From positions 1-64,000 of the forward strand of contig JAUYRN010000012.1 in assembly GCA_030696775.1 (NCBI GenBank): a stretch of 64,000 nucleotides of DNA, read 5' to 3'. The notes beneath the pieces are model-generated. The model saw only the letters and a list, made by a program, of their open reading frames with translations. It did no database searches and was not told the DNA's origin. The translations under genes and the position numbers were made by a program. Of this stretch, positions 13,800-38,711 are shown in pieces; position 1 is the first letter of the stretch; the number at the start of each line of letters is the position of its first letter. Source of the DNA: Sulfuricurvum sp. (lineage in GTDB: Bacteria > Campylobacterota > Campylobacteria > Campylobacterales > Sulfurimonadaceae).

Positions 13800-14045
13800 A
13801 TGAAAATAATATATGGAATTTTATTTTTTATAGCCATAGAAATATTTTTTGAATTACCAGCAATATTGATGTATGAAAAGAATGTATATGGACTAACGGA
13901 ATTAATAATAATAAATCTAATAATGACAATACTAATATATAGAATAGTATATTTTTATATGATGAACTACAAAAATGAGAAAAAGAAAAAAGATTTAGAT
14001 CAATATATTCAAGAGTCACTAAAAAATTATAAAGGCGCAAATTAA
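13800..14045 (+). CDS. Small two-segment membrane protein of the prophage (unknown)
   Basis: An 81-residue protein with two hydrophobic segments (about 3-23 and 33-55) and a lysine-rich tail (KNEKKKKDL). It is the only prophage gene on the plus strand, and its stop overlaps the rep stop tail-to-tail by four bases. It is more AT-rich than the phage core. Position at the edge of an inovirus, outside the structural operon, suggests a cargo gene, for example one for immunity to superinfection or a host effect. No family is recognised and no good ribosome-binding site is visible. Confidence 0.5.
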   Translation: MKIIYGILFFIAIEIFFELPAILMYEKNVYGLTELIIINLIMTILIYRIVYFYMMNYKNEKKKKDLDQYIQESLKNYKGAN

Positions 14046-15280
14046 TAAGTTATCAAAGCCTTATAATCATCAAAACCAAATATTTGAGCGGTGAGAGTAG
14101 GGCATGAATCTATCAAATCACGAGCTACACAAATATTTCTAATTTGTATAAAATGATTTATATCGCATAGATCAACATCGAGAGTATTAAAATATTCTAA
14201 CAAATCCCAATCCGTGTAATCCTCAAAACTCTTTTTAGGTACAAAAGCGCGTCCATAATTGAAAACATAATCAGACAGAGCACCGTTTAAAAATATAGGT
14301 ATAGAGGAATCTTTTAATTTTGTAGATGCTGAAAATTTAGGATAATGTTTAACCCTGCTTGGAACGTGATTATTTGCTTTAGGAAATAAAACATCAAGAT
14401 CAGGGGAACGGCTATATAAAACGTCCTCACATATTCCGTCATCCTCAGTTAAGTAACGATACAAAAAGATTTTTTTATTATAAATGGGGTAGATCGTACC
14501 GTCTTTATATTTAAGAGTTGTCCAAATAAAATCACGAAACTTTTCATTATGTTTTATTTTGCGGTAAACATAGAGCGGTAAAAGCGTTTGAGAGGTCGTA
14601 AAGCGTCGAATGGAGTGTAAAGCGTAATAATACGCCTCCAATGTCATTTTATCCTCCAAGGCATGTTTAAACGTCTTATTTATATATTTCATAATATAAG
14701 CAACAGCACCGCCAGCATTTCCGCTCCATGTATATTTGTAATCCTGTGCAAGCCTAGAAGCACCATCAACCGCAAAATGACGCTTAAACACACGTTTCAC
14801 GGGCAAAATAAAGTTTTTAGGTATAAATATCAATACATGAACATGGGGCGTACCGTCTTTGTGAGGCTCAATTACGCGAATATAAATCATATTATGATTT
14901 ATTGATTTTTTGATATTTTTAAATATCTTCAATCTAAGAAATGAAGCCCAACGGCTAGAAAGATAACGAACCGAATCGCGAACCGTAGAACCGTCATATT
15001 TTTTAGAATTTGAATGAAATTGAGGTGGACACGTTTGTGTTAAAAAAACGGGATAGAGATCGAGCATTTGAGCATATTTAAAAAGACTATTTACACGATT
15101 ATTAACTTCTGCAAAATACTTTTTTGGATTAATATTTGCACCCATAGAGGAATCGAGCAAATTAAAATCATTCTCAAATATATCAATAACGAATTCAGAA
15201 AGGAATTTTTTTTGTTTTATGATCTTATTATCTACATTTTGCAAATCAGAAAGGGAAAGATTATATTTTAAAGCAGACAA
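14042..15280 (-). CDS. HUH-type rolling-circle replication initiator of the inovirus
   Basis: Nicks the double-stranded phage origin and starts rolling-circle replication. The 412 residues show the three HUH motifs in order: motif 1 FLTQTCPP (about 79-86), motif 2 TPHVHVLIF with metal-binding H146 and H148, and motif 3 AYIMKYINK with two candidate catalytic tyrosines (Y195, Y199). This resembles the GPA/phage-replication families rather than Ff pII. It is the last gene of the phage operon, after the secretin, whereas Ff places gene II first. A GC-rich hairpin pair lies immediately upstream. Confidence 0.82.
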   Translation of the reverse strand: MSALKYNLSLSDLQNVDNKIIKQKKFLSEFVIDIFENDFNLLDSSMGANINPKKYFAEVNNRVNSLFKYAQMLDLYPVFLTQTCPPQFHSNSKKYDGSTVRDSVRYLSSRWASFLRLKIFKNIKKSINHNMIYIRVIEPHKDGTPHVHVLIFIPKNFILPVKRVFKRHFAVDGASRLAQDYKYTWSGNAGGAVAYIMKYINKTFKHALEDKMTLEAYYYALHSIRRFTTSQTLLPLYVYRKIKHNEKFRDFIWTTLKYKDGTIYPIYNKKIFLYRYLTEDDGICEDVLYSRSPDLDVLFPKANNHVPSRVKHYPKFSASTKLKDSSIPIFLNGALSDYVFNYGRAFVPKKSFEDYTDWDLLEYFNTLDVDLCDINHFIQIRNICVARDLIDSCPTLTAQIFGFDDYKALITY

Positions 15281-15330
15281 ATGAGTTCCTCATTTTTCGC
15301 GGTGCGAAAGTTTATTAATAATGAATCAAG

Positions 15331-15384
15331 GGGACGCGCTGAACGCGTCCCAGCTCCTAAAATACGTTCGTCGCGCTTAACGCG
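15331..15384. other. Paired hairpins upstream of rep: candidate phage origin
   Basis: Two 13-base elements, CGCGCTGAACGCG (15335-15347) and CGCGCTTAACGCG (15372-15384), differ by one base. Each folds into a CGCG stem with a five-base loop. The first extends to a perfect 8-bp stem GGGACGCG (15331-15351). They occupy the 154-base gap between the secretin and rep genes, the only GC-rich spot in an AT-rich neighbourhood. Origins nicked by HUH proteins typically lie in such hairpins, but a role in packaging or transcription is also possible. Confidence 0.5.
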
Positions 15385-15434
15385 CTCCTCTCTAAATTTT
15401 ATACGCTGTAACTGTTTATTGATTGTATTTAATA

Positions 15435-17024
15435 TCATTTTTTTACTATCTGATCGTTATATAATTTTTGATAATGTCCTAGAGTGCCTAAATCTGTTTG
15501 AAGGGATGAAAGAGTTTTAGAATCGTCGATAATATAAGGAGTAATAACCAAAAGTAAATTATCCTTTTGTGTAATCGTTGATTGATGGGAAAATATCTTA
15601 CCAATGTAAGGAAGTTTAGAAAGAAAGGGAACGCCATCATCCACAAGAGAATCATAACTTTTGACAAAACCGCCCAGTACAATAGTTTCACCGTGATGAA
15701 GTATTGAATCAGTTTTAATCTGCTGTTTAGTTGTAATCGGTTGATTATTAGAATCGAGGACGGGCAATATATTCTCAATTACAGCATCAATCGAAATCGT
15801 TAATTTATCTTTAGAAGCCACAAGAGGTTTAATAGAGAGTGACAAACCAACGTCAGAGCGAGAGAGTGAACTAGTTGTACCAGCTGATCCAGTTGTTGAT
15901 CCAGTTAAAAAAGATAAAGATTTACCAACGACAATTTTTGACTCTTTATTGTTGAGACATAACAAAGACGGATCACTTAAAGTTTTAGATACGCCCTCAC
16001 TTTGAAGAAGATCAAGGGAAGCACCAATTGTAAGGAGCTGTTTAACATTTCCCAGCGAAGAAGTAAGAGAGGATAAAATCATTTCATTAACGGGAGCAAC
16101 AGAAGCACCGCCAACGTTACCAGCAAAAGTAAAGAAGTTAGAAGCACTAACAATTCCACCATCCAAGCCGTATTTTACGCCTATTTTAGAACTCAAATCA
16201 TTATTTAATTCTATGATACGGACTTGCACATATACTTGATATTGTTCGCGGTCTAAATCGGAGATCATAGCGGGAATTTTTACAATCAAATCATTATCGC
16301 CCTGGACAAAAAGAGTATTTGAATCTTGATGTATAGAAATAATAACATTCGATTTATTATTATCTGTAAACATGGATCGAAGAGTTTTAGAGACAGAATC
16401 TGCGGAAGAATTAACCAAGTGAAACGATTTAAAAGACTGATCCTTGATAAATGGTTTTTTATCAATATCATTAATCAAACTTTGAATAATTTTAATATTA
16501 TCCGAAAAATCAGAAACAACCAAAACGCCACTATCAGGAACACCGAAAGCAGAACCCGACGAAGAGAGAAGAGATCGAACACTTTCCAAAATGGGAATTA
16601 CATTTGCATATTTAATATGAATTACTTTTGAACCGTACCCAGCTGATGATCGAGAGCCTAAATAAACATTATCGTACTGACGCAAATCTTTAGAGTTTAT
16701 AACAGAATAATATTTTCCATTATTTACCAAAGCATAATTATTAAGCTCTAAAGCAGATTTTAAAAGAGGAAGTAAATCGCGATTTTTAATATCCATGTTT
16801 GAAAGATAATCAATTGATCCTTCCAGCTTGCCCGATACTAAGATATTTTTACCTAAAGACTTTGAAGCTAAACGTACAAATTCATTCAATGACATACCGT
16901 CCAGTGACGAGAGCAAAGGAGGCGGAGGAAGTAAAGCACCAGTAGAAGGCAAAGGAGATGGAACAATTAAAGGCGAACCAAAAAGAGAAAGAGAAAAGAG
17001 AGATACAAAGATAAATTTAAACAT
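15435..17024 (-). CDS. Phage-encoded secretin (pIV-like outer-membrane channel)
   Basis: Outer-membrane gate for extrusion of the filamentous virion. The 529 residues begin with a signal peptide (MFKFIFVSLFSLSLFG) and a proline-rich linker. Periplasmic N-domains follow, with KVIHIKYANVIPILESVRSL and the repeated FHLVNSSADSVSKTLRSMF. The C-terminal secretin barrel ends with VPFLSKLPYIGKIFSH and LLLVITPYII, hallmarks of the GspD/PilQ/pIV family. The ATG at 17024 has GGAG upstream and follows the zot stop by one base. Many inoviruses borrow a host secretin; this one brings its own. Confidence 0.9.
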   Translation of the reverse strand: MFKFIFVSLFSLSLFGSPLIVPSPLPSTGALLPPPPLLSSLDGMSLNEFVRLASKSLGKNILVSGKLEGSIDYLSNMDIKNRDLLPLLKSALELNNYALVNNGKYYSVINSKDLRQYDNVYLGSRSSAGYGSKVIHIKYANVIPILESVRSLLSSSGSAFGVPDSGVLVVSDFSDNIKIIQSLINDIDKKPFIKDQSFKSFHLVNSSADSVSKTLRSMFTDNNKSNVIISIHQDSNTLFVQGDNDLIVKIPAMISDLDREQYQVYVQVRIIELNNDLSSKIGVKYGLDGGIVSASNFFTFAGNVGGASVAPVNEMILSSLTSSLGNVKQLLTIGASLDLLQSEGVSKTLSDPSLLCLNNKESKIVVGKSLSFLTGSTTGSAGTTSSLSRSDVGLSLSIKPLVASKDKLTISIDAVIENILPVLDSNNQPITTKQQIKTDSILHHGETIVLGGFVKSYDSLVDDGVPFLSKLPYIGKIFSHQSTITQKDNLLLVITPYIIDDSKTLSSLQTDLGTLGHYQKLYNDQIVKK

Positions 17025-17025
17025 T

Positions 17026-18159
17026 TTAAGCTCCAGTAGTTTTAATAACATCACCCGCACTATTAAAATTTGATTTAGGTGATTTTTGAGCATTTACGGG
17101 GATCGTCCACATTGAAAAGATAGACATATCTGAAGAAGGAATTGAAAATAAACTATCTTTATAAGTAGTGCTAAATATACGAAGATCAGAACTCACAAGA
17201 AGTTTTGCATTTGTCAAATTTAAAGCTTCCTCAAAATACAATTTAGGAATATAATTTGTTACAAAGGCAGGATCAACACGAGAACAATTAACAGCATCAC
17301 AGCGAACACGAAGAAGCATAACGGAAGCCACAGAAGCTTTAAGAGGCTCAACAATGGGATCATTAGGATTAATTACAGCAGGAGCAGGAACAGAGGAAGG
17401 GGCTAGTTTGTCCTCCATTCTACCCATGAATAAATAAACCATTAAAAGAATGAATGCAACAGCACCGCCCATAATAGCAATATATTTGTATAAAACTTTT
17501 TTTGGTTTATGAAGATCACCCGATTTGTAAAGCTCGAAAATATCATTAGAGGCGGTTATCTTATCGGAAGAATATCTATTATCTTTTGTGTAGGTATCAG
17601 TACCGTAAAAATAATATCGAAACGAATTATTTGATAATGCTTTGGATTTAGGTTGAGCATCAATAAACTCTTCTGAATGAGCTTTATAATCGGAGTGCAT
17701 GAGAGATGGACGGTGAATAATAAATACTAAATCTAATCCTAAATGACCGTGATAACCATTAAGCCATACAAGAGCCGGATCGCTTTTTTTTGTATAAAAT
17801 CTGTACGCCTCATCAACAACAATTAAAGCAGGTGAAATTTTATGGTATCGAGCATAACGAAGAAGATCATCATCCGATTTGTCAGCTTTGGCCATTTCGT
17901 GTAATTTTAAAATATGGGGATAAAAGGTATTCCAATCTAAATACAGAGCTTCTTTAGTAATTACTTCCTCATCCGTAATTATCGGATTATTAGAAAGTAT
18001 TTCATTAACAAGATCATATTTAAAACCGCCGATATTTGTATATAAAAATCTATGCTTTGAATAATCTTTAGAAGTAAATTTTATGAAGGTTTCGTTAATC
18101 TGCCAAACGGCACGATATGATTTACCCGAACGAGGCAAACCAGTTAAAATCGTAATCAT
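17026..18159 (-). CDS. zot: Zot/pI-type assembly ATPase
   Basis: Inner-membrane ATPase that drives assembly and extrusion of filamentous phage. The 377 residues begin with Walker A GLPRSGKS (7-14) and contain Walker B ALIVVDEAYRFY (111-122). A single membrane segment (about 226-246, IAIMGGAVAFILLMVYLFMG) leads to a periplasmic tail that would meet the secretin. This is the marker gene of inoviruses. It overlaps the pVI-like gene by four bases (ATGA) and is followed directly by the secretin. Confidence 0.95.
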   Translation of the reverse strand: MITILTGLPRSGKSYRAVWQINETFIKFTSKDYSKHRFLYTNIGGFKYDLVNEILSNNPIITDEEVITKEALYLDWNTFYPHILKLHEMAKADKSDDDLLRYARYHKISPALIVVDEAYRFYTKKSDPALVWLNGYHGHLGLDLVFIIHRPSLMHSDYKAHSEEFIDAQPKSKALSNNSFRYYFYGTDTYTKDNRYSSDKITASNDIFELYKSGDLHKPKKVLYKYIAIMGGAVAFILLMVYLFMGRMEDKLAPSSVPAPAVINPNDPIVEPLKASVASVMLLRVRCDAVNCSRVDPAFVTNYIPKLYFEEALNLTNAKLLVSSDLRIFSTTYKDSLFSIPSSDMSIFSMWTIPVNAQKSPKSNFNSAGDVIKTTGA

Positions 18160-29481: not shown

Positions 29482-31167
29482 CTAACTTGCAGAGATTTTA
29501 TATCGAGAAAGCTCTCTCCCTTTAGTATCAATCACATGAACCGCACACGCCAAACATGGATCAAATGAATGAATCACCCGTAATACTTCTAATGGTCGTT
29601 CAGAATCTGCAAGCTTTATTCCGATAAGTGATTCCTCATACGCTCCGAGCTGTCCTGTCGCATCTCGCGGTGATGCATTCCATGTTGTCGGTGCTACAAC
29701 TTGATAATTAGCAACTTTAGCATCTTCAATTCGGACAAAGTGACCCAATACACCTCTGGGAACTTCAAAAATTCCTGCACCTTTGGATGCACTTGGCAGG
29801 GTTTCAAAAACATACTTTGTCCATGTTTCTTCATCGTAATATTTGATATTTTCGATTAAATCACTCATAAAATCAAAAAGATAATCACAGCATATCTGCG
29901 CTTCAACAGCACGAGCCGCATTGCGTCCGATAGTTGTAGAAAAATCGATAAGAGTCATCCCAGTATCTTTCATAAAACGATCCATATAGGGCTTAATCAC
30001 TTTAGAGTTTTTAACCACGCCCACGATCATTCGAGCTACTGGACCTACTTCCATTACTTTTCCGCCATAGCGAGGAGCTTTTACCCAGCTGTATTTCCCC
30101 TCACTTTTTAGCGTTCCATCCTCATTCAAATCGGTATAAAATGGGACAGTCTCTTGATCGTATGGCGAGCTTGGAAGATCATCTTCATACCAAGATCGGG
30201 ATGCTTCTTCGGTGATTTTAGACAGATCAAATGACTCTATTTCGTCAAAATTATGACCAGTCAGAACACCACTTTCAAAAAGCTGTTCTTTTGAAGCAAA
30301 TTGATACCCGCCACAGCACATAAAGTTTCCGCTTCCGCGCCCTTCTCCCATTTTGATCGATTCTTCATATGCTTTTACCATCATCTTCATGTCAGGTATA
30401 TACGCACGCTCCAAGAAATCACGCGTCTCTTTGATCAGAAACATAAAATCATTGAGTCGTTGAGGATTGAGCATATCTACAACACTGGTAACGCCTCCAA
30501 CAACTAGATTTTGAGGGTGCGGTGTTTTTCCGGCGAAAATAGCGATGGCTTTGGAGATGTCATGCTGAATCCGAAGCGCTTCGAGATAATGGTTCATATG
30601 GACCAAATTTTCCTCAGGCGTGAGCCGATAGCTTTCATGTCCCCAATAACCATTAGCAAAGAGCCCTAACCGCCCTGCTTTGACGAAACTGTTCAGTTTC
30701 TCCTTGACGCTTTCCAAATGTCCCTCAGAATTTCGATAAGGACGTTCATGATACTGTTGTGCCGTCTTGACTGCTTTAGAACAGTCCGCCGTTAAAGCAC
30801 TCGTAATGTCCACAAAATCAAGTGAATGAAGATGATAATAGTGGATAATATGATCTTGGACAAAGAGAGAAAGAGTGACAAGATTACGGACAATCTCGGC
30901 ATTTTGAGGTATCATAATCCCATACGCATCTTCGACAGCACTGATGGAAGCACGATAATGCACATTGGTACAAACACCGCAAATACGCTGCGCTATAAGC
31001 CCGGCATCTCTAGGATCACGTCCTTGGAGAATAATCTCAATACCTCGAAATAGCTGTCCGGATGCCCATGCATTGGTAACAATATTTTCTTCATTCACTT
31101 CCACTTCGATACGTAAATGCCCCTCAATGCGAGTGATAGGGTCGATAACAATTTTACGCTTACTCAT
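29482..31167 (-). CDS. [NiFe] hydrogenase large (catalytic) subunit, group-2-like
   Basis: Holds the Ni-Fe active site for H2 activation. The 561 residues carry the N-terminal ligand motif RICGVCT and the C-terminal motif DPCLACAVHVID, with processing expected after the histidine. The start at 31167 (MSKRKIVIDPITRIEGHLRI) has AAGGA just upstream and overlaps the small-subunit gene by eight bases. A longer frame from 31278 lies inside that gene and is rejected. The partner subunit has no Tat signal, so the enzyme is cytosolic. Maturation genes are not in the window. Confidence 0.93.
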   Translation of the reverse strand: MSKRKIVIDPITRIEGHLRIEVEVNEENIVTNAWASGQLFRGIEIILQGRDPRDAGLIAQRICGVCTNVHYRASISAVEDAYGIMIPQNAEIVRNLVTLSLFVQDHIIHYYHLHSLDFVDITSALTADCSKAVKTAQQYHERPYRNSEGHLESVKEKLNSFVKAGRLGLFANGYWGHESYRLTPEENLVHMNHYLEALRIQHDISKAIAIFAGKTPHPQNLVVGGVTSVVDMLNPQRLNDFMFLIKETRDFLERAYIPDMKMMVKAYEESIKMGEGRGSGNFMCCGGYQFASKEQLFESGVLTGHNFDEIESFDLSKITEEASRSWYEDDLPSSPYDQETVPFYTDLNEDGTLKSEGKYSWVKAPRYGGKVMEVGPVARMIVGVVKNSKVIKPYMDRFMKDTGMTLIDFSTTIGRNAARAVEAQICCDYLFDFMSDLIENIKYYDEETWTKYVFETLPSASKGAGIFEVPRGVLGHFVRIEDAKVANYQVVAPTTWNASPRDATGQLGAYEESLIGIKLADSERPLEVLRVIHSFDPCLACAVHVIDTKGRELSRYKISAS

Positions 31168-33586
31168 GTGATTCCTTTGGAAGTGGCCGATTATTGGCAT
31201 ATTCGTCAAACGCGATTTTACCCGCACCGCAGGCAAAACATCCATGACCTGCTTGTACCGGCCAGCTGGTTCCCTCATTAAACTTTACTTGTGGGCAGTT
31301 CATTTGGGCATACGGTCCTTTGCATCCCATTTGAAACAAACACCACCCTTTTTTTGCTCCCTCATCACCCCATTCGAGGACAAACTCGCCCAGATCAAAA
31401 TGTCCGCGCCGTTCGCAGTTATCATGAACCAAAAAGCTATATGCCCATTCGGGACGATTTTTAGTATCAAGTTTTGGAAATTCGTCAAACATCATAAAAT
31501 GAAGCAATGTTCCTACAATGTTGATTGGATTAACAGGACATCCGGGGAGATTGATGATGTCTTTTCGTCCCAGTGCTTCAGAAACCCCAACAGCTCCGGT
31601 TGGGTTAGGTGCAGCAGCTACTACTCCACCATCATACGCACACGATCCAACGGCAATTACAGCCGCCGCATCTTTTGCAACCCGCTGGAGCAGTGCATGT
31701 CCTGTTTCCCCTTTTGGTCCGATACGCAAAAACTTCCCATCAAGACCAAGAGGCACTGCACCCTCGACAATCAAGACGTATTTACCTGAATCATATTTAA
31801 TAATATTATCAAGTACATTTTCCGATTGTTCACCTGACCCTGCCATGAGAAGTTCATGGTAATCGAGCGAAATGTATTTGAGGATCAAATCATCGATTTT
31901 CGGATGAGATGATTTGATAAACCCTTCTGAATTTCCACTGCAATCGGAGAGTTCCAGCCAAATGATAGGGATTTTATTGAGCTGCTTAACTCCTTCGTTA
32001 ACGACGTTTTCAAAATCAGGATGCAAATGCATTGTCGCCGTAATCATCGAAACCCATTGATTGAATTCACGGCTCATATCAAAAGAAGCAATTGCTTCTT
32101 CAAGATTCTCTGCACTGAGCTGATTTTTAGGATGTATGGTATTGTATTTATTGATCCGGGCACGAACACGTTCCAGCTCCGCTTCTTTTAACTTATTTTC
32201 TCGTTCCTCTCTAAGTCGTGCAGCTTCTTCATGATTGACAGGCGTAGCCGCGATTAAAGCAGAAATATCTTGCTTACATCGACCGCATACCCGACCTGCA
32301 TTGGTATACGGTTTGAGTTCGGCAAACGAAGTAATGGCATTGAATTTAATAATCTCAATGAGCTCTTCCTCATAAACACTCTCACAACTGCAAACCAAAC
32401 GACCCTTTCCACTATTGAGACGATTTGAGTAAAAGTATGCTGGATCAATTGTCTCATTTTTTTCCATTAACTTTTTGAGATGGATTAGATCAATATTGGT
32501 ATTAATACCGATAAAACGCTGGAGACGATCATGGCTGATGATGTATTGATCGATTCGATTTTTATGGGTGATGAGAATGGTTTCGTTCTCTGAATCTTTA
32601 GGATCATAACTTGGGGAACGCACATCAGCAAAAAGAAATGAACCCACTTTTAGCCCATCGATAGACACCGTTTGCTCGAAAGTTTTTCTTTCTAGCCCCA
32701 ACAATGTTTCAACAGCAACATCAGCTTGCAATGTACACTCTTTTACTCGTCCGGCGATAAAGCCATTTTTACGCAATTGCGCTGCTTCACCGACACAATA
32801 AATATCAGGATTGGAGGTACGCATCGTATCATCTACCAAAATACCTTTGTCACACTCGAGCACATCACGAGCAAAAGATACATGTGGATCAATCCCTGCT
32901 CCAAAAATAAGAAAAAGATTGTCAATCGTTCTATGACGGGTTTGAATTTCAGTGATTTCATCTTTGTAGACTTTTTTACTGACTATCTCGTCATTAAAAT
33001 CGATTCGTATTCGTGAATCCTGTTCAAAAATTCCTCGTAGCAGAGCAATTCCCTCTCGACTTAAATCCGATGAATAGAGATGCTCTTTTCGAGCAAGTAA
33101 CGTAATTGATTTTGGATACGGACTTCGCATCAGCGTATCAAGAAGTTCGAGGCCAATGGGCCCGACTCCCACAATCACAACATTTTTTCCGATTATTCCT
33201 TGCTCTATTTTTTCGCACTCTTTTTCACATCGAAACGTTGATGCGTTTTTGATTCCCTGAATATCAAAAGGTGCTTTAGGCTGAGAGCCGGTAGCAATAA
33301 TGAGTTTATCATAGGAAAATGCTGCATGCGCACTTAGGATACGTTTGCTTGAAATATCAATACTTAGTACTGCTTGATTGAGTTCTAAACGTACTCTTGG
33401 GTCAAGATCGAGAGTAATGGACTCAACGCACTGACTTTTTTCCACAAGTGCGCAAAGGTGAATCCTGTCATACGGAGGATGGGATTCATCAGAGACAATA
33501 AGTACCTCAGATGCAGAATCTTTTTGCAACAACGTGTTGGCAAGATACACAGCAGATATTCCACCTCCGACAATCACTACTCGCAT
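31160..33586 (-). CDS. Fusion of NAD(P)H/FAD oxidoreductase, [2Fe-2S] BFD-like domain and [NiFe] hydrogenase small subunit
   Basis: An 808-residue electron-transfer subunit. Residues 1-300 are a NirB-like flavoprotein: FAD site VVIVGGGISAVYLA (3-16), NAD(P) site VVIVGVGPIGLELL (136-149) and FAD motif DIYCVGEAA (261-269). A BFD-like [2Fe-2S] domain follows, with C399, C401, C434 and C437. Residues from about 535 are the hydrogenase small subunit: DCSGN at 548-552 (asparagine replacing the usual second cysteine, as in group 2 HupS), C649, GCPVNP (C683), H721/C724/C749/C755 for the distal cluster and C764/C783/C786 for the medial one. No signal peptide. It likely links H2 to a pyridine nucleotide or other cytosolic carrier. 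Confidence 0.9.
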   Translation of the reverse strand: MRVVIVGGGISAVYLANTLLQKDSASEVLIVSDESHPPYDRIHLCALVEKSQCVESITLDLDPRVRLELNQAVLSIDISSKRILSAHAAFSYDKLIIATGSQPKAPFDIQGIKNASTFRCEKECEKIEQGIIGKNVVIVGVGPIGLELLDTLMRSPYPKSITLLARKEHLYSSDLSREGIALLRGIFEQDSRIRIDFNDEIVSKKVYKDEITEIQTRHRTIDNLFLIFGAGIDPHVSFARDVLECDKGILVDDTMRTSNPDIYCVGEAAQLRKNGFIAGRVKECTLQADVAVETLLGLERKTFEQTVSIDGLKVGSFLFADVRSPSYDPKDSENETILITHKNRIDQYIISHDRLQRFIGINTNIDLIHLKKLMEKNETIDPAYFYSNRLNSGKGRLVCSCESVYEEELIEIIKFNAITSFAELKPYTNAGRVCGRCKQDISALIAATPVNHEEAARLREERENKLKEAELERVRARINKYNTIHPKNQLSAENLEEAIASFDMSREFNQWVSMITATMHLHPDFENVVNEGVKQLNKIPIIWLELSDCSGNSEGFIKSSHPKIDDLILKYISLDYHELLMAGSGEQSENVLDNIIKYDSGKYVLIVEGAVPLGLDGKFLRIGPKGETGHALLQRVAKDAAAVIAVGSCAYDGGVVAAAPNPTGAVGVSEALGRKDIINLPGCPVNPINIVGTLLHFMMFDEFPKLDTKNRPEWAYSFLVHDNCERRGHFDLGEFVLEWGDEGAKKGWCLFQMGCKGPYAQMNCPQVKFNEGTSWPVQAGHGCFACGAGKIAFDEYANNRPLPKESHE

Positions 33587-33990: not shown

Positions 33991-34539
33991 ATGTCTAACA
34001 TTGACTTGATCCAACTTACAGAGCAAACTAAAAAACTTACAGCAATGGTTGTAGAAGATGAAGTAGTTGCAAATGATCTTTTAAGCTCTACGTTTAAAAA
34101 CTTTTTTGCGGATGTAACATCTGCTTATAATGGCGCAGAAGCTTTACGTGTCTATGAAAAAATGAATCCGGATATCGTATTCGTTGATATTATTATGCCA
34201 GAAATTGATGGTATCGAACTTTCTCGTCGTATTCGTGCAATCAATCCATCACAGATCATTATCGTTATTTCAGCAAGTAATGATATTCAAAAGATTTCAG
34301 AATCAATCGAAGTTGGAGTAAACAGCTTTATTCAAAAACCAATCGATACCAAAAAAATTCTTGAAATGCTTCATAACATCGTTTCGCTTATCTCTAAACG
34401 TAAAAAAATCGAAACAAAAACATTTTCTATCTCATTGCCATTAGATGTATATGAATTAGTAGATGACAATGCTAAAGCAGAAAGTATTTCTAAAAATGCT
34501 GTTATCATTCGCGCACTACGTTCATTTTATCACAACTAA
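33991..34539 (+). CDS. Response regulator with a ribbon-helix-helix (CopG/Arc-like) output domain
   Basis: A 182-residue two-component regulator. The receiver domain (about 15-130) has the acidic pair E22/D23, phosphoacceptor D66 in FVDIIMPEIDG, a conserved SAS loop (94-96) and K116 in QKP. The last 40 residues (about 144-182) read KTFSISLPLDVYELVDDNAK and then AESISKNAVIIRALRSFY, which fits a ribbon-helix-helix: one strand (FSISLP), two helices and a serine-asparagine helix cap. That would bind DNA as a dimer. The gene has AGGAG upstream and a strong terminator after it. No histidine kinase is adjacent, so it is an orphan. Confidence 0.85.
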   Translation: MSNIDLIQLTEQTKKLTAMVVEDEVVANDLLSSTFKNFFADVTSAYNGAEALRVYEKMNPDIVFVDIIMPEIDGIELSRRIRAINPSQIIIVISASNDIQKISESIEVGVNSFIQKPIDTKKILEMLHNIVSLISKRKKIETKTFSISLPLDVYELVDDNAKAESISKNAVIIRALRSFYHN

Positions 34540-34641: not shown

Positions 34642-34716
34642 GGCTCCATCATCTAATGGTTAGGATTTCAGATTTTCATTCTGGTCATAGGGGTTCAAAT
34701 CCCCTTGGAGTCACCA
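34642..34716 (+). tRNA. tRNA-Glu (anticodon UUC)
   Basis: 75 bases that fold as a complete cloverleaf. The acceptor GGCTCCA pairs with TGGAGTC (one G-U). D stem ATC/GAT; anticodon stem TCAGA/TCTGG with loop TTTTCAT, giving anticodon TTC; T stem AGGGG/CCCCT with loop TTCAAAT. Discriminator A and an encoded CCA end follow. Its 3' part is repeated 3.7 kb downstream, marking it as an integration target. Confidence 0.95.
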
Positions 34717-34760
34717 TAACGCTTTCCCTCCACAACGTACTTTCAACCACTTTAAGCTTT
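34700..34760 (+). repeat. Left copy of the tRNA-Glu 3'-end direct repeat
   Basis: The first 15 bases (TCCCCTTGGAGTCAC) are the 3' part of the tRNA, and the rest is its downstream flank. 55 of 61 positions match the copy at 38426-38494, apart from an 8-base insertion there. This is the pattern left by site-specific integration into a tRNA 3' end, followed by drift. Confidence 0.8.
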
Positions 34761-34913: not shown

Positions 34914-35141
34914 TCATCATCTAACATCAATAAATTGCTTTTTAGAAACAGTTATAAAATTATTGTTGTTGTCTACTTAATTTAAATTAATAATTTATAA
35001 ATGTTACAAAACATGCCATATAAAATAAATTCTACATAATTGTTAAGGTTAATATTTGATTTTTACCATACAGAAAATGTATAATAAATACACATATAAA
35101 CATTTTTAATCCATATAAAAAATTATATTAAAGAGTCTGAT

Positions 35142-36620
35142 TTGAATATAAAAAAAAGCCTGCGGATATTACGTGTCATTTTACCGATTTGTATTGATAC
35201 ATTTAAAGCAAATGCTGTTATTAATTCTCTTAAGCTATGTATACGAAAAATAAATTTAACTATTATATTTATTCTAGCTGTAGAGATGTATATACAAACT
35301 TCCACCTCATTCTTTGTACCTTTTGACAGAGCTGCACTCGCTTTAACCAATTCTACAGTAATCAATTTTGATGCTGAAGACAACAACGGAACCATTCATA
35401 GCGGTCTACGCTGGAGAGAACTTCAAAATTTCAATCATCCAGACGCCCCTGTTTTACTTACTATCGAACAATCCACATTTGATCACCATTATGGCGGAAT
35501 TTCTCCTATCGATCGATGTAAATTTGCAGATGCTATCAATCCCATACTCGCAACGAACCCAAAAGTCTTATTTATCGACTATGATCTATCACCACTTCAA
35601 ATTGATAGAAGTGAGCAACAAATCATGCAAGACGGTGAAAATAATACAATAATCACTCAGTATCCTCAACATCAATTCAAAATATGTCAAGAAAAACTCA
35701 ACCAAACTTTATTCAAATACGGTGAAAAAATTATCCTTATAGAGCCTTTCAGCGATTCTCAAGATATACTATCGTGGAAAAAAAATTTAGAACAACATGG
35801 AGTTAAATTCGCTTCAGCTAAAATGAATTCTTCACTTGGAATGGTTGTTACCACTTCCACACACCCGAATTCAGTTGCCAAAGTTATTAACGACAAAATT
35901 ACACAATGCGGCTTAGCGCAATGTACTGAAGATATAATGACAACTTCACCGATTAATTTTGCCGGTTTAGGAAAGTTTGAAGATATTGATTCTGAAAATA
36001 CCACATTTGATCCCAATAAAGTTATTTTTATTGGAGGGACTTACGGCATTGATGATCACCATATTACTCCTATCGGTGAAAATACTCCAGGAATTATGAT
36101 CCAAGCATACGATTACGCATCAAGTTTAAAACCATTTTCAAACGCTTATTGGGTACAAATTCTAACTTTTCTCTTTGAACTGATTTTTGCTACACTCATT
36201 TTAAATATTTTGCAAAAACTATGGCAATGGTATATCAACTATGAAACCAGTGAAAATCCTGTCAAAGTGCAACTTGCAGTCTTCGTTTCAATAATCATAT
36301 ATATAATAAGTGGTCTACTCGCATGGATATCTTTATATATTGCAGGTTGGCTTCTAAGAGGAGATCCTTTTGGTATTCAGATTTGGATTTCGCCTGTTCC
36401 AATAATTTTGGCTATTTTTGTTTACAGCGCTAAAGAAATTCTATTCAAAAAATTAAAATTTGCACTCCAAAGTCAATCTGAACGAAATTTACAGGATTGT
36501 TCAATCTCTACTTCTGAAAAATCAAAATTTTCAGCCAAAACAATTGCTTGGGCTCGTGCAATTAATTACATCAAAATTATTCTTGGAATCATGTTATTAA
36601 TTTTGATTTATACAAAATAA
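35142..36620 (+). CDS. CHASE2-domain membrane sensor without an output domain
   Basis: A 492-residue protein starting at TTG. One membrane segment (about 38-58) precedes an extracytoplasmic CHASE2 domain (about 65-335). That domain shows APVLLTIEQSTFDHHYGGIS, then NPKVLFIDYDLSPL and KVIFIGGTYGIDDHHITPIG with PGIMIQAYDYASSL, all typical of the family. Four hydrophobic segments follow (about 342-370, 390-418, 427-446 and 473-490). CHASE2 normally feeds a cyclase, kinase or phosphatase, but here the protein ends in the membrane. Signalling must therefore go through a partner, or the protein works differently. First gene of the island operon. Confidence 0.82.
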   Translation: MNIKKSLRILRVILPICIDTFKANAVINSLKLCIRKINLTIIFILAVEMYIQTSTSFFVPFDRAALALTNSTVINFDAEDNNGTIHSGLRWRELQNFNHPDAPVLLTIEQSTFDHHYGGISPIDRCKFADAINPILATNPKVLFIDYDLSPLQIDRSEQQIMQDGENNTIITQYPQHQFKICQEKLNQTLFKYGEKIILIEPFSDSQDILSWKKNLEQHGVKFASAKMNSSLGMVVTTSTHPNSVAKVINDKITQCGLAQCTEDIMTTSPINFAGLGKFEDIDSENTTFDPNKVIFIGGTYGIDDHHITPIGENTPGIMIQAYDYASSLKPFSNAYWVQILTFLFELIFATLILNILQKLWQWYINYETSENPVKVQLAVFVSIIIYIISGLLAWISLYIAGWLLRGDPFGIQIWISPVPIILAIFVYSAKEILFKKLKFALQSQSERNLQDCSISTSEKSKFSAKTIAWARAINYIKIILGIMLLILIYTK

Positions 36621-36630
36621 GGAGTTCAGA

Positions 36631-37278
36631 ATGCTTACAAAAACAATCGTGTTAATTTTAATGAGTAGTTTTATAGGTTATACCGCTGAGTGTAAGTTTC
36701 CTAATCCATGCGGTCAAATGCTTATACATCATGAAGCTATTGCAGCATCTTCACCTCTTAAAGGACAGATTGACTCAAACAAATATTCTGAAAATGCAGT
36801 AAATCTGGCTTGGGAAAAACTTTTTCATCAAGTAACATTTGGAGGAAAAAGACTTAATACTGAAGTGCCTGATGGGATGCCAGTGGGGGATGTATTCTTT
36901 AATACTGAAGGATTACTCGTAGAAACCAATGTTGTGATTCTATCTTTCGATCTCATATATAAGAACACGCGTATTTGGACATTGAATCCACCTAGAAACT
37001 CTTTTATCATCCCATCAAATATTCTAAAAGTTGGAGAAGAATATTCATGGGAAGCCACTATAAAAAATGGTGTAGATCAATATACACTCAAAGATGATTT
37101 CACTCTTATGAACTCTTCGGATCAAAAAACAATTCAAATTGAACGGAAAAGAATTGTTCGTGAATCAGGAGATCCCACAAGTAGTGAGTTTTTATTTGCT
37201 GTTTACTGCTATGACTACGGTTACAGATACAATGGAGACATTATCCTCCAAAAATTAAATAAAGAAAAAATCAAATGA
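36631..37278 (+). CDS. Secreted beta-rich protein of the CHASE2 operon
   Basis: A 215-residue protein with a signal peptide (about 1-18, ending GYTAEC) and no membrane segment. The middle part has alternating strands such as SFIIPSNILKVGEEYSWEAT and KNGVDQYTLKDDFTLM, recalling the beta-sandwich periplasmic domains found with FecR or DUF928 proteins near CHASE2 genes in other bacteria. That resemblance is weak. Cysteines occur near the mature N terminus. AAGGAG lies before the ATG, 10 bases after the CHASE2 gene, and the gene overlaps the M48 gene by four bases. Function unknown. Confidence 0.7.
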   Translation: MLTKTIVLILMSSFIGYTAECKFPNPCGQMLIHHEAIAASSPLKGQIDSNKYSENAVNLAWEKLFHQVTFGGKRLNTEVPDGMPVGDVFFNTEGLLVETNVVILSFDLIYKNTRIWTLNPPRNSFIIPSNILKVGEEYSWEATIKNGVDQYTLKDDFTLMNSSDQKTIQIERKRIVRESGDPTSSEFLFAVYCYDYGYRYNGDIILQKLNKEKIK

Positions 37279-38282
37279 AAAATCAAACATCTACCGCAAT
37301 AATACTAAGTAGTTTACTTATGGTTGGTTGTGCAGTACCCTCCAATACTTCGTCATCTACCTATAATAGTTTTAGTCTTTCGGAAACGTTAAACAAAGCG
37401 CAAAGCAAACCGATCGTAGCCAATTCATCAATAGCCGCTTACGAATATGATAGAGAATGTAAACACCCTGTGGAATCATTCAGGCTTATCGATAGTGCGG
37501 CAATATTAGGGACCTTATTTGCAAAAGCTAAAATGGCTGAAACATTTGGAAATAAAAATGTCAATACATTACTAATGATAAAAAATGGAGCGAAACAAAT
37601 AAACTGGCTTCCAATGGAAGTTGAAATTATGTTCTCAGAAAAAGAACAAGAACAATACAAGAAAATAACTCTTCAAAAAAATAAAGCTCCAAAAGAGTAC
37701 GCAAAAGCTCAAGAAATATTAGATACATTGGTTTCCAATATAGGAAAAGAACACGATTATAAATTTCAGATCTTTGTTACCAACGGGAAAGGAAAAGAGG
37801 CGATTGCACTTCCAGGAGGATTTGTATATGTTTCCAAAAGTGCGTTAAAAGATGAAAAATTTGTAAAATTTACTTTAGCTCATGAGATTTCACACTCTTT
37901 AAAACGTCATGAAACGATGGGTCTACAGTCACAAATTATTGATAGTATTCAATCCGTAGATGAGTTATCCAAAGTATTACAAAATCCAACTAAAAACCTA
38001 ACAACAATTGGTGCACGAGCACTGACCAATAAAACATTTTTTATGAAGTTTGCTGAAGATCAAGAATTGGTTGCAGATGCTTGTGCAGTTGCATTACTGA
38101 AAAAAGCATATCCCAATGATACCAATAAAATCATCGAATTTTACATGTCTACGTTACCAACTAAAAATCCAGATATAAAACAAAAAACAGTTTTCGATAT
38201 GGCTTTTGCATCAATGCAAAAACACCCCGTAAGTGCTGAAAGAAGAAAAAATTTGATCTTCTTCAAAAATAAACAAATGTAA
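37275..38282 (+). CDS. M48-family metallopeptidase lipoprotein
   Basis: A 335-residue lipoprotein. The signal peptide ends in the lipobox LMVGC, with C19 as lipid site. The peptidase domain has KEAIALPGGFVYVSKSAL, the zinc motif HEISH (in TLAHEISHSLKRHE) and the downstream glutamate in EDQELVADACAV, the gluzincin pattern of BepA/LoiP-type periplasmic proteases. It overlaps the secreted protein gene by four bases (ATGA), implying coupled synthesis. It probably acts in the envelope on misfolded or partner proteins. The region 38283-38425 downstream holds no clear gene. Confidence 0.88.
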   Translation: MKNQTSTAIILSSLLMVGCAVPSNTSSSTYNSFSLSETLNKAQSKPIVANSSIAAYEYDRECKHPVESFRLIDSAAILGTLFAKAKMAETFGNKNVNTLLMIKNGAKQINWLPMEVEIMFSEKEQEQYKKITLQKNKAPKEYAKAQEILDTLVSNIGKEHDYKFQIFVTNGKGKEAIALPGGFVYVSKSALKDEKFVKFTLAHEISHSLKRHETMGLQSQIIDSIQSVDELSKVLQNPTKNLTTIGARALTNKTFFMKFAEDQELVADACAVALLKKAYPNDTNKIIEFYMSTLPTKNPDIKQKTVFDMAFASMQKHPVSAERRKNLIFFKNKQM

Positions 38283-38425: not shown

Positions 38426-38494
38426 TCCCCTTGGAGTCACTATAACACTTTCCCTTCATAACGTACTAACCTACTTTCAAGTACTTTAAGCTTT
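38426..38494 (+). repeat. Right copy of the tRNA-Glu 3'-end direct repeat
   Basis: It begins with the same 15 bases as the tRNA 3' part (TCCCCTTGGAGTCAC). It continues with the same flank, interrupted by the 8-base insertion TAACCTAC, and ends ACTTTAAGCTTT. The CCA end is lost (CTA). It marks the right limit of the island. Confidence 0.8.
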
Positions 38495-38548
38495 TGGTCG
38501 TAAAAACTACAATACGACAGCTTTCTTTTAACTCCGCGTCTGACAAAT

Positions 38549-38711
38549 GGAACAGCTGTAACCATTTCAGCTAGTGTTGAAGTAGCTGTTTATCCTAAAG
38601 ATAAAAGATCTGTTACAAAATGCTGATAAAGCGATGTATGATACAAAAAGAGAGGGTAGAAGCAGATTTTCCCCCTATCAACAAGTCAAAGAAGAAACAA
38701 AAATACTCTAG
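38549..38711 (+). pseudogene. Broken diguanylate cyclase (GGDEF) C-terminal fragment
   Basis: Two reading frames give successive pieces of a GGDEF domain end. The first, from 38549, reads TAVTISASVEVAVYPKDK (family form VTISIGVAxYPxD). The second, from 38607, reads DLLQNADKAMYDTKREGRSR (family form LLxxADxAMYxAKxxGRN) and ends at TAG. A frameshift or small deletion near 38600-38609 separates them, and no GGDEF catalytic core remains upstream. It lies 55 bases right of the island repeat. The rest of 38283-38891 has no gene. Confidence 0.75.

Follow-up and report, generated by a model that had tools for sequence, protein, structure and literature searches.

A rare gene trio on tRNA- and tmRNA-associated islands of Campylobacterota: a CHASE2 membrane protein without a cytosolic effector, a secreted Ig-like protein and an M48 protease

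Three consecutive genes in the window (the whole 64,000-nucleotide stretch of DNA that was analysed) encode a CHASE2 membrane protein with no detectable cytosolic enzyme, a secreted protein with a predicted Ig-like core, and a zinc protease of the M48 family, and the same trio, with the same order and strand, was present in four further Campylobacterota genomes. The trio is cargo of islands associated with tRNA or tmRNA genes. Tentatively, we read it as a conserved envelope module of Campylobacterota islands in which the CHASE2 protein may be the anchor or receptor controlling a periplasmic M48 protease, with the Ig-like protein as a possible adaptor.

Layout and distribution of the trio

An earlier note on this DNA had described three adjacent or overlapping plus-strand genes with envelope products, and the open reading frames were recovered exactly where it had placed them (Table 1). 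The CHASE2 gene and the Ig-like gene are separated by a 10-nt gap, the Ig-like and M48 genes overlap by 4 nt (ATGA), and intergenic distances in the trios range from -8 to +33 nt. The GC content of the trio was 33.3%, compared with 37.7% in the remainder of the window. Promoter-like sites of the kind listed upstream of the CHASE2 gene were no more numerous in the region than expected by chance. The protease is present in one copy in its own genome, where the other CHASE2 gene is an ordinary one, the CHASE2-histidine kinase of a set with FecR and OmpA.

Table 1. Features of the trio and its island in the window, and loci of a related CHASE2-cyclase operon in other genomes
Feature	Position	Strand	Details and basis
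CHASE2 membrane protein without effector, predicted TM1 + CHASE2 + TM2-4 + TM5	35142..36620	+	492 aa, TTG start; PF05226; hydropathy; homologues in four further trios
Secreted protein, predicted Ig-like beta-sandwich + C-terminal helices	36631..37278	+	215 aa; AF2 model, fold comparison, homologues
M48 zinc protease, HEISH / ELVAD / HPx4R, signal sequence	37275..38282	+	335 aa; PF01435; motifs; 3c37
Promoter-like TTGATT-18-TATAAT	35056..35085	+	56 nt upstream of CHASE2 start; consensus 10/12
tRNA-Glu (TTC), integration target	34642..34716	+	ARAGORN
Left att-like repeat, starting within the 3' end of tRNA-Glu	34700..34760	+	direct repeats D1/D2
Right att-like repeat	38426..38494	+	direct repeats; just past the protease
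Decayed C-terminal remnant of a diguanylate cyclase gene	38525..38693	+	tblastn with G007 protein, 55-70% identity, two frames, stops
SH3-M48-CHASE2-cyclase operon loci	L054 3117-6576; L055 6074-9521; L056 1091-4463; L057 5389-8765		

Elsewhere in the window, low-GC genes resembling those of a filamentous prophage (a Phage_GPA replication protein, a secretin, and Zot) occupy 14042-18159 and probably extend to approximately 22000. An 808-aa fusion of a pyridine-nucleotide oxidoreductase carrying a BFD-like domain with a NiFe-hydrogenase small subunit (31160-33586) adjoins a large-subunit gene, and the same fusion occurs in the sister genome G007. At 33991-34539, a response-regulator receiver domain precedes what may be a ribbon-helix-helix DNA-binding domain (RHH_1, below the cut-off).

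A first contig scan with the window protein gave no match, and a second returned only two Sulfurimonas records. The family-wide search with the middle protein yielded a 24%-identical relative in another genus (G156), with CHASE2 and M48 genes on either side in the order seen in the window, and profile searches revealed further complete trios in G241, G489, and G629. G156 and G241 are Sulfurimonas records, while G489 and G629 share a genus in a second family (probably the Arcobacteraceae); the proteins of these four trios share approximately 19-29% identity with those of the window. The search for the same three-gene set elsewhere, which the earlier note had suggested as a check, thus found the genes together, and the arrangement is not due to chance, given the homologous, identically ordered trios of four other genomes. 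These genomes likewise rule out a trio confined to its source genome. The trio was found in 3 of the 228 genomes of the window's family and in 2 of the 104 genomes of the second family, and samples of 397 and 399 genomes (phylum and order, respectively) added only G489 and one lone M48; by these surveys, the trio is uncommon and patchily distributed, with all three genes in every copy found. The lone M48 (G692; L167 470-1123) is an M48-like gene fragment near the trio family, with neither a CHASE2 gene nor a secreted protein. Among viruses, phages, and plasmids, no relatives of the proteins tried were detected, one search giving only distant generic M48s.

Predicted architecture of the three proteins

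The CHASE2 protein of the window matched Pfam CHASE2 (PF05226) with an E-value of 3.9e-8 and a score of 33.6 bits (cut-off 26.3), and the match (residues 90-341; profile positions 27-246 of 257) covers nearly the whole domain. Among the copies scanned (window, G156, G241, and G489), those of G156 and G241 also exceeded the cut-off, and that of G489 fell just below it (26.0). Topology was predicted from hydropathy, which gave the window protein a single membrane helix ahead of the domain and four behind it; an extra, weak N-terminal hydropathy window has charged residues inside. Hydropathy and alignment pointed to one architecture in all five trio proteins, namely a helix, the ectodomain, three helices, and, beyond a short loop, a fifth helix at the extreme C-terminus (TM4 of the G241 protein lies below the hydropathy threshold, yet the aligned segment is present). 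In ordinary CHASE2-cyclase and CHASE2-kinase proteins taken for comparison, hydropathy gave one plus three helices followed by the enzyme, whereas neither Pfam nor NCBIfam detected a cytosolic effector (cyclase, kinase, or GGDEF) in the trio CHASE2 protein, which has the fifth helix there instead. These analyses bear out the earlier description of a CHASE2 protein with five membrane segments and no cytosolic effector. Because all five proteins share the short loop and the fifth helix, as opposed to the enzyme that follows the 1+3 helices elsewhere, the enzyme is, judging from the sequences, consistently replaced rather than chopped off. The structure model of the CHASE2 protein (pLDDT 45) was too poor for use.

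The middle gene had been proposed to encode a beta protein with a signal peptide, in agreement with the signal peptide and the Ig-like core of the predicted structure. In the AF2 model, which was built from three sequences only, an Ig-like beta-sandwich spans approximately residues 75-163, with pLDDT values of 78-91 over residues 101-160 and poor values elsewhere; the part predicted with fair confidence covers approximately residues 86-160. The best matches in a fold comparison (Z of about 8) indicate an Ig-like sandwich and no more. No family match was obtained in Pfam or NCBIfam, a profile of the secreted protein found no solved relative, and a suspected likeness to DUF928 was rejected, with no DUF928 Pfam match at E-values up to 10. 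Four cysteines are common to four copies of the secreted protein, and the window copy has three.

The protease of the window matched Pfam Peptidase_M48 (PF01435; E=7.5e-12) and was one of four trio proteases scanned, all of which gave this match; its nearest solved structure was 3c37. It contains HEISH, a downstream ELVAD, and an HPx4R plug, and HExxH, E..AD (with the third-ligand Glu), and HPx4R are invariant in all five trio proteases; the HPx4R active-site plug has been described for BepA (PMC7950410). The NCBIfam BepA model scored far under its cut-off on the window protease. The envelope M48 proteases BepA, LoiP, and YcaL and the relative 3c37 are like the trio protease in HExxH, the third Glu, the HPx4R plug, and export, whereas the trio protease differs from BepA, LoiP, and YcaL in having its own N-terminal extension with a conserved cysteine and in travelling with CHASE2. 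Two cysteines are invariant in all five proteases, one in this extension and the other beside the third zinc ligand, and they could form a disulfide. The characterization of this protein as a lipobox/HEISH peptidase held only in part: the HEISH M48 protease was confirmed, but the lipoprotein feature was absent from the other four copies. The weak lipobox (Cys19 after M-V-G) is restricted to the window copy; the G156 and G629 proteases have no cysteine within the first 35 residues, and in those of G241 and G489 the cysteine falls inside the signal-sequence core.

Islands at tRNA and tmRNA genes

In the window, the 3' end of the tRNA-Glu gene and its flank are repeated 3.73 kb further on, with the trio in between (D1/D2 direct repeats of 42 nt at 90% and 27 nt at 89%), a boundary absent from the earlier note. 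In the sister genome G007, whose glutamyl-tRNA synthetase is 98% identical to that of the window, another island, which encodes a tyrosine integrase, occupies the same tRNA-Glu gene and has that repeat at its borders, and the right-hand repeats of this island and of the window share bases. The G007 island (L127 4358-9232) also encodes a 470-aa protein that matched no family and a 369-aa secreted protein. The diguanylate cyclase gene is intact at the same place in G007, and its remnant in the window marks the edge of the island, outside the trio.

The trio of G629 lies past a tmRNA gene. Homology with the congener G628 extends to the 3' end of the tmRNA, breaks, and resumes 4.2 kb later, and in G628, which represents the empty site, the two homologous parts lie approximately 120 bp apart, which shows insertion to have occurred at the 3' end of the tmRNA gene. 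G629 may carry two or more stacked insertions, because ahead of its trio there is a partial internal repeat of the tmRNA end. A 105-aa open reading frame between the tmRNA and the trio (L140 5516-5833) resembles, by eye, the N-terminal part of a Fic protein and had no PHROG match. In G489, homology with congeners ends at the 3' end of tRNA-Arg, 64 bp from the protease, and in G156 an integrase fragment separates tRNA-Asn from the trio that comes after it. No tRNA was found near the G241 trio, and the trios of G489 and G156 showed no flanking repeats. If some 30 such sites are assumed per 2.5 Mb, as a rough figure, the position of four of the five copies next to a tRNA or tmRNA gene would be far beyond chance. 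The proposal that a mobile island carries the trio is well founded, given the tRNA-Glu repeats, the integrase-bearing island of G007 at the same site, and the empty site of G628. Like tRNA/tmRNA-targeted integrative islands and helper-dependent elements, the trio islands show insertion at the 3' end, flanking repeats, and cargo that varies at each site; unlike such integrative islands, the window island has no integrase of its own and contains almost nothing but the trio.

Sporadic presence in both families (3/228 and 2/104 genomes) and insertion at tRNA/tmRNA hot spots, which are typical places for defence cargo, would agree with a defence or exclusion module in which the passage of phage or conjugation machinery through the envelope makes the CHASE2 protein release the periplasmic protease, so that incoming proteins are cleaved or the cell is crippled. 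However, PADLOC gave nothing beyond a weak metallopeptidase match on the trio (capP only, E=0.0015, 39 residues), no known defence genes lay beside the trio in the loci read, and the cargo of mobile elements is often metabolic or stress-related. A role in defence is possible, at a fairly low probability.

Related CHASE2 systems and a possible mechanism

Secreted or outer-membrane partners are often encoded or act together with CHASE2 receptors, as exemplified by NsrA upstream of the Sinorhizobium meliloti CHASE2 cyclases (PMC13001267), LysM-FecR paired with a CHASE2 kinase (PMC5192318), and MtxA paired with a CHASE2 cyclase (PMC4439547). The FecR and OmpA genes of the window's own genome are a further instance of such pairing. 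The CyaD1, CyaD2, and CyaK cyclases of S. meliloti and the CHASE2 kinases with LysM-FecR share with the trio a CHASE2 ectodomain, the 1+3 helices, and a secreted or outer-membrane partner, whereas the trio CHASE2 protein lacks a cyclase, kinase, or GGDEF domain, has a fifth C-terminal helix, and belongs to a divergent subfamily. MtxA with the CHASE2-adenylate cyclase of magnetotactic bacteria likewise places a secreted protein (discussed with Ig-like domains) beside CHASE2, but no M48 has been reported in that system. Our literature search found no paper covering both CHASE2 and M48.

A rare operon combining SH3, M48, and CHASE2-adenylate cyclase genes was observed in four genomes of the window's family (G015, G018, G152, and G165). 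Like the trio, it comprises three genes, for a small secreted protein, an M48 protease (there a lipoprotein), and a CHASE2 protein; unlike the trio, it retains the cyclase, has another gene order, and has no tRNA nearby, and its small protein shows no visible relation to the secreted protein of the trio. The M48 proteases of the two systems fell into separate clades in a tree with very long branches, and the CHASE2 profile of the trio found none of the cyclase-operon CHASE2 proteins. Direct descent of the trio from this operon is unsupported by the tree and the profile, and a deep link is possible.

That genes for a secreted SH3-like protein and an M48 lipoprotein immediately adjoin a CHASE2-adenylate cyclase gene in those four genomes, and that CHASE2 proteins normally signal inward, would suit a trio CHASE2 protein that still signals to the cytosol, its TM4-TM5 loop docking a host enzyme in trans and the M48 and Ig-like proteins serving as upstream signal processors. 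We consider this less likely, as the short loop shows little conservation of length or sequence among the copies, the CHASE2 and M48 proteins of the trio are not specifically close to those of the cyclase operon, and a travelling module would less probably depend on a single host partner in two families. Truncation of a CHASE2-cyclase or CHASE2-kinase gene in a decaying trio, an outcome that the earlier note had named and that the absent effector, the island without an integrase, and the decayed neighbouring diguanylate cyclase gene might suggest, is so improbable that we dismiss it, the relic being ruled out by the same ending with an added membrane helix in all five genomes, alongside intact reading frames and active-site motifs retained at approximately 25% identity.

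Most likely, the CHASE2 protein would regulate a periplasmic M48 protease from the inner membrane, together with an Ig-like adaptor. It would act there as receptor and anchor, with the ordinary ectodomain and transmembrane block retained, and because a fifth helix stands in place of the cyclase or kinase, its output would be expected in the membrane or periplasm and not in the cytosol. Upon sensing an envelope condition, it would license or restrain the M48 protease, and the cysteine-containing Ig-like protein may serve as an adaptor or substrate selector. The conserved cysteine pair of the protease could add a redox clamp, and the protease would then degrade damaged or foreign envelope proteins. 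The simplest reading would be that the envelope half of a CHASE2-cyclase-type system was kept and the cytosolic half dropped, with CHASE2 directly regulating a periplasmic protease, and self-contained envelope sensing and proteolysis would fit this picture. The fuller proposal of a new mobile system, in which a CHASE2 receptor acting on the periplasmic face switches a dedicated M48 protease, and which has spread between Campylobacterota families on tRNA/tmRNA-targeted islands, possibly for defence or exclusion, is more doubtful.

Made of known parts in an unusual combination, the trio appears to be a case of a signalling receptor that has become a component of a mobile envelope-protease unit. 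Because tRNA/tmRNA islands carry it, the module is presumably useful on its own in new hosts. CHASE2 domains have been counted as receptors for cytosolic enzymes, with ligands that are mostly unknown; here a conserved CHASE2 form is encoded with no partners other than a protease and a secreted Ig-like protein, which suggests that periplasmic proteins may be under the control of the ectodomain itself, and the trio offers a small, portable system for asking what a CHASE2 domain binds.
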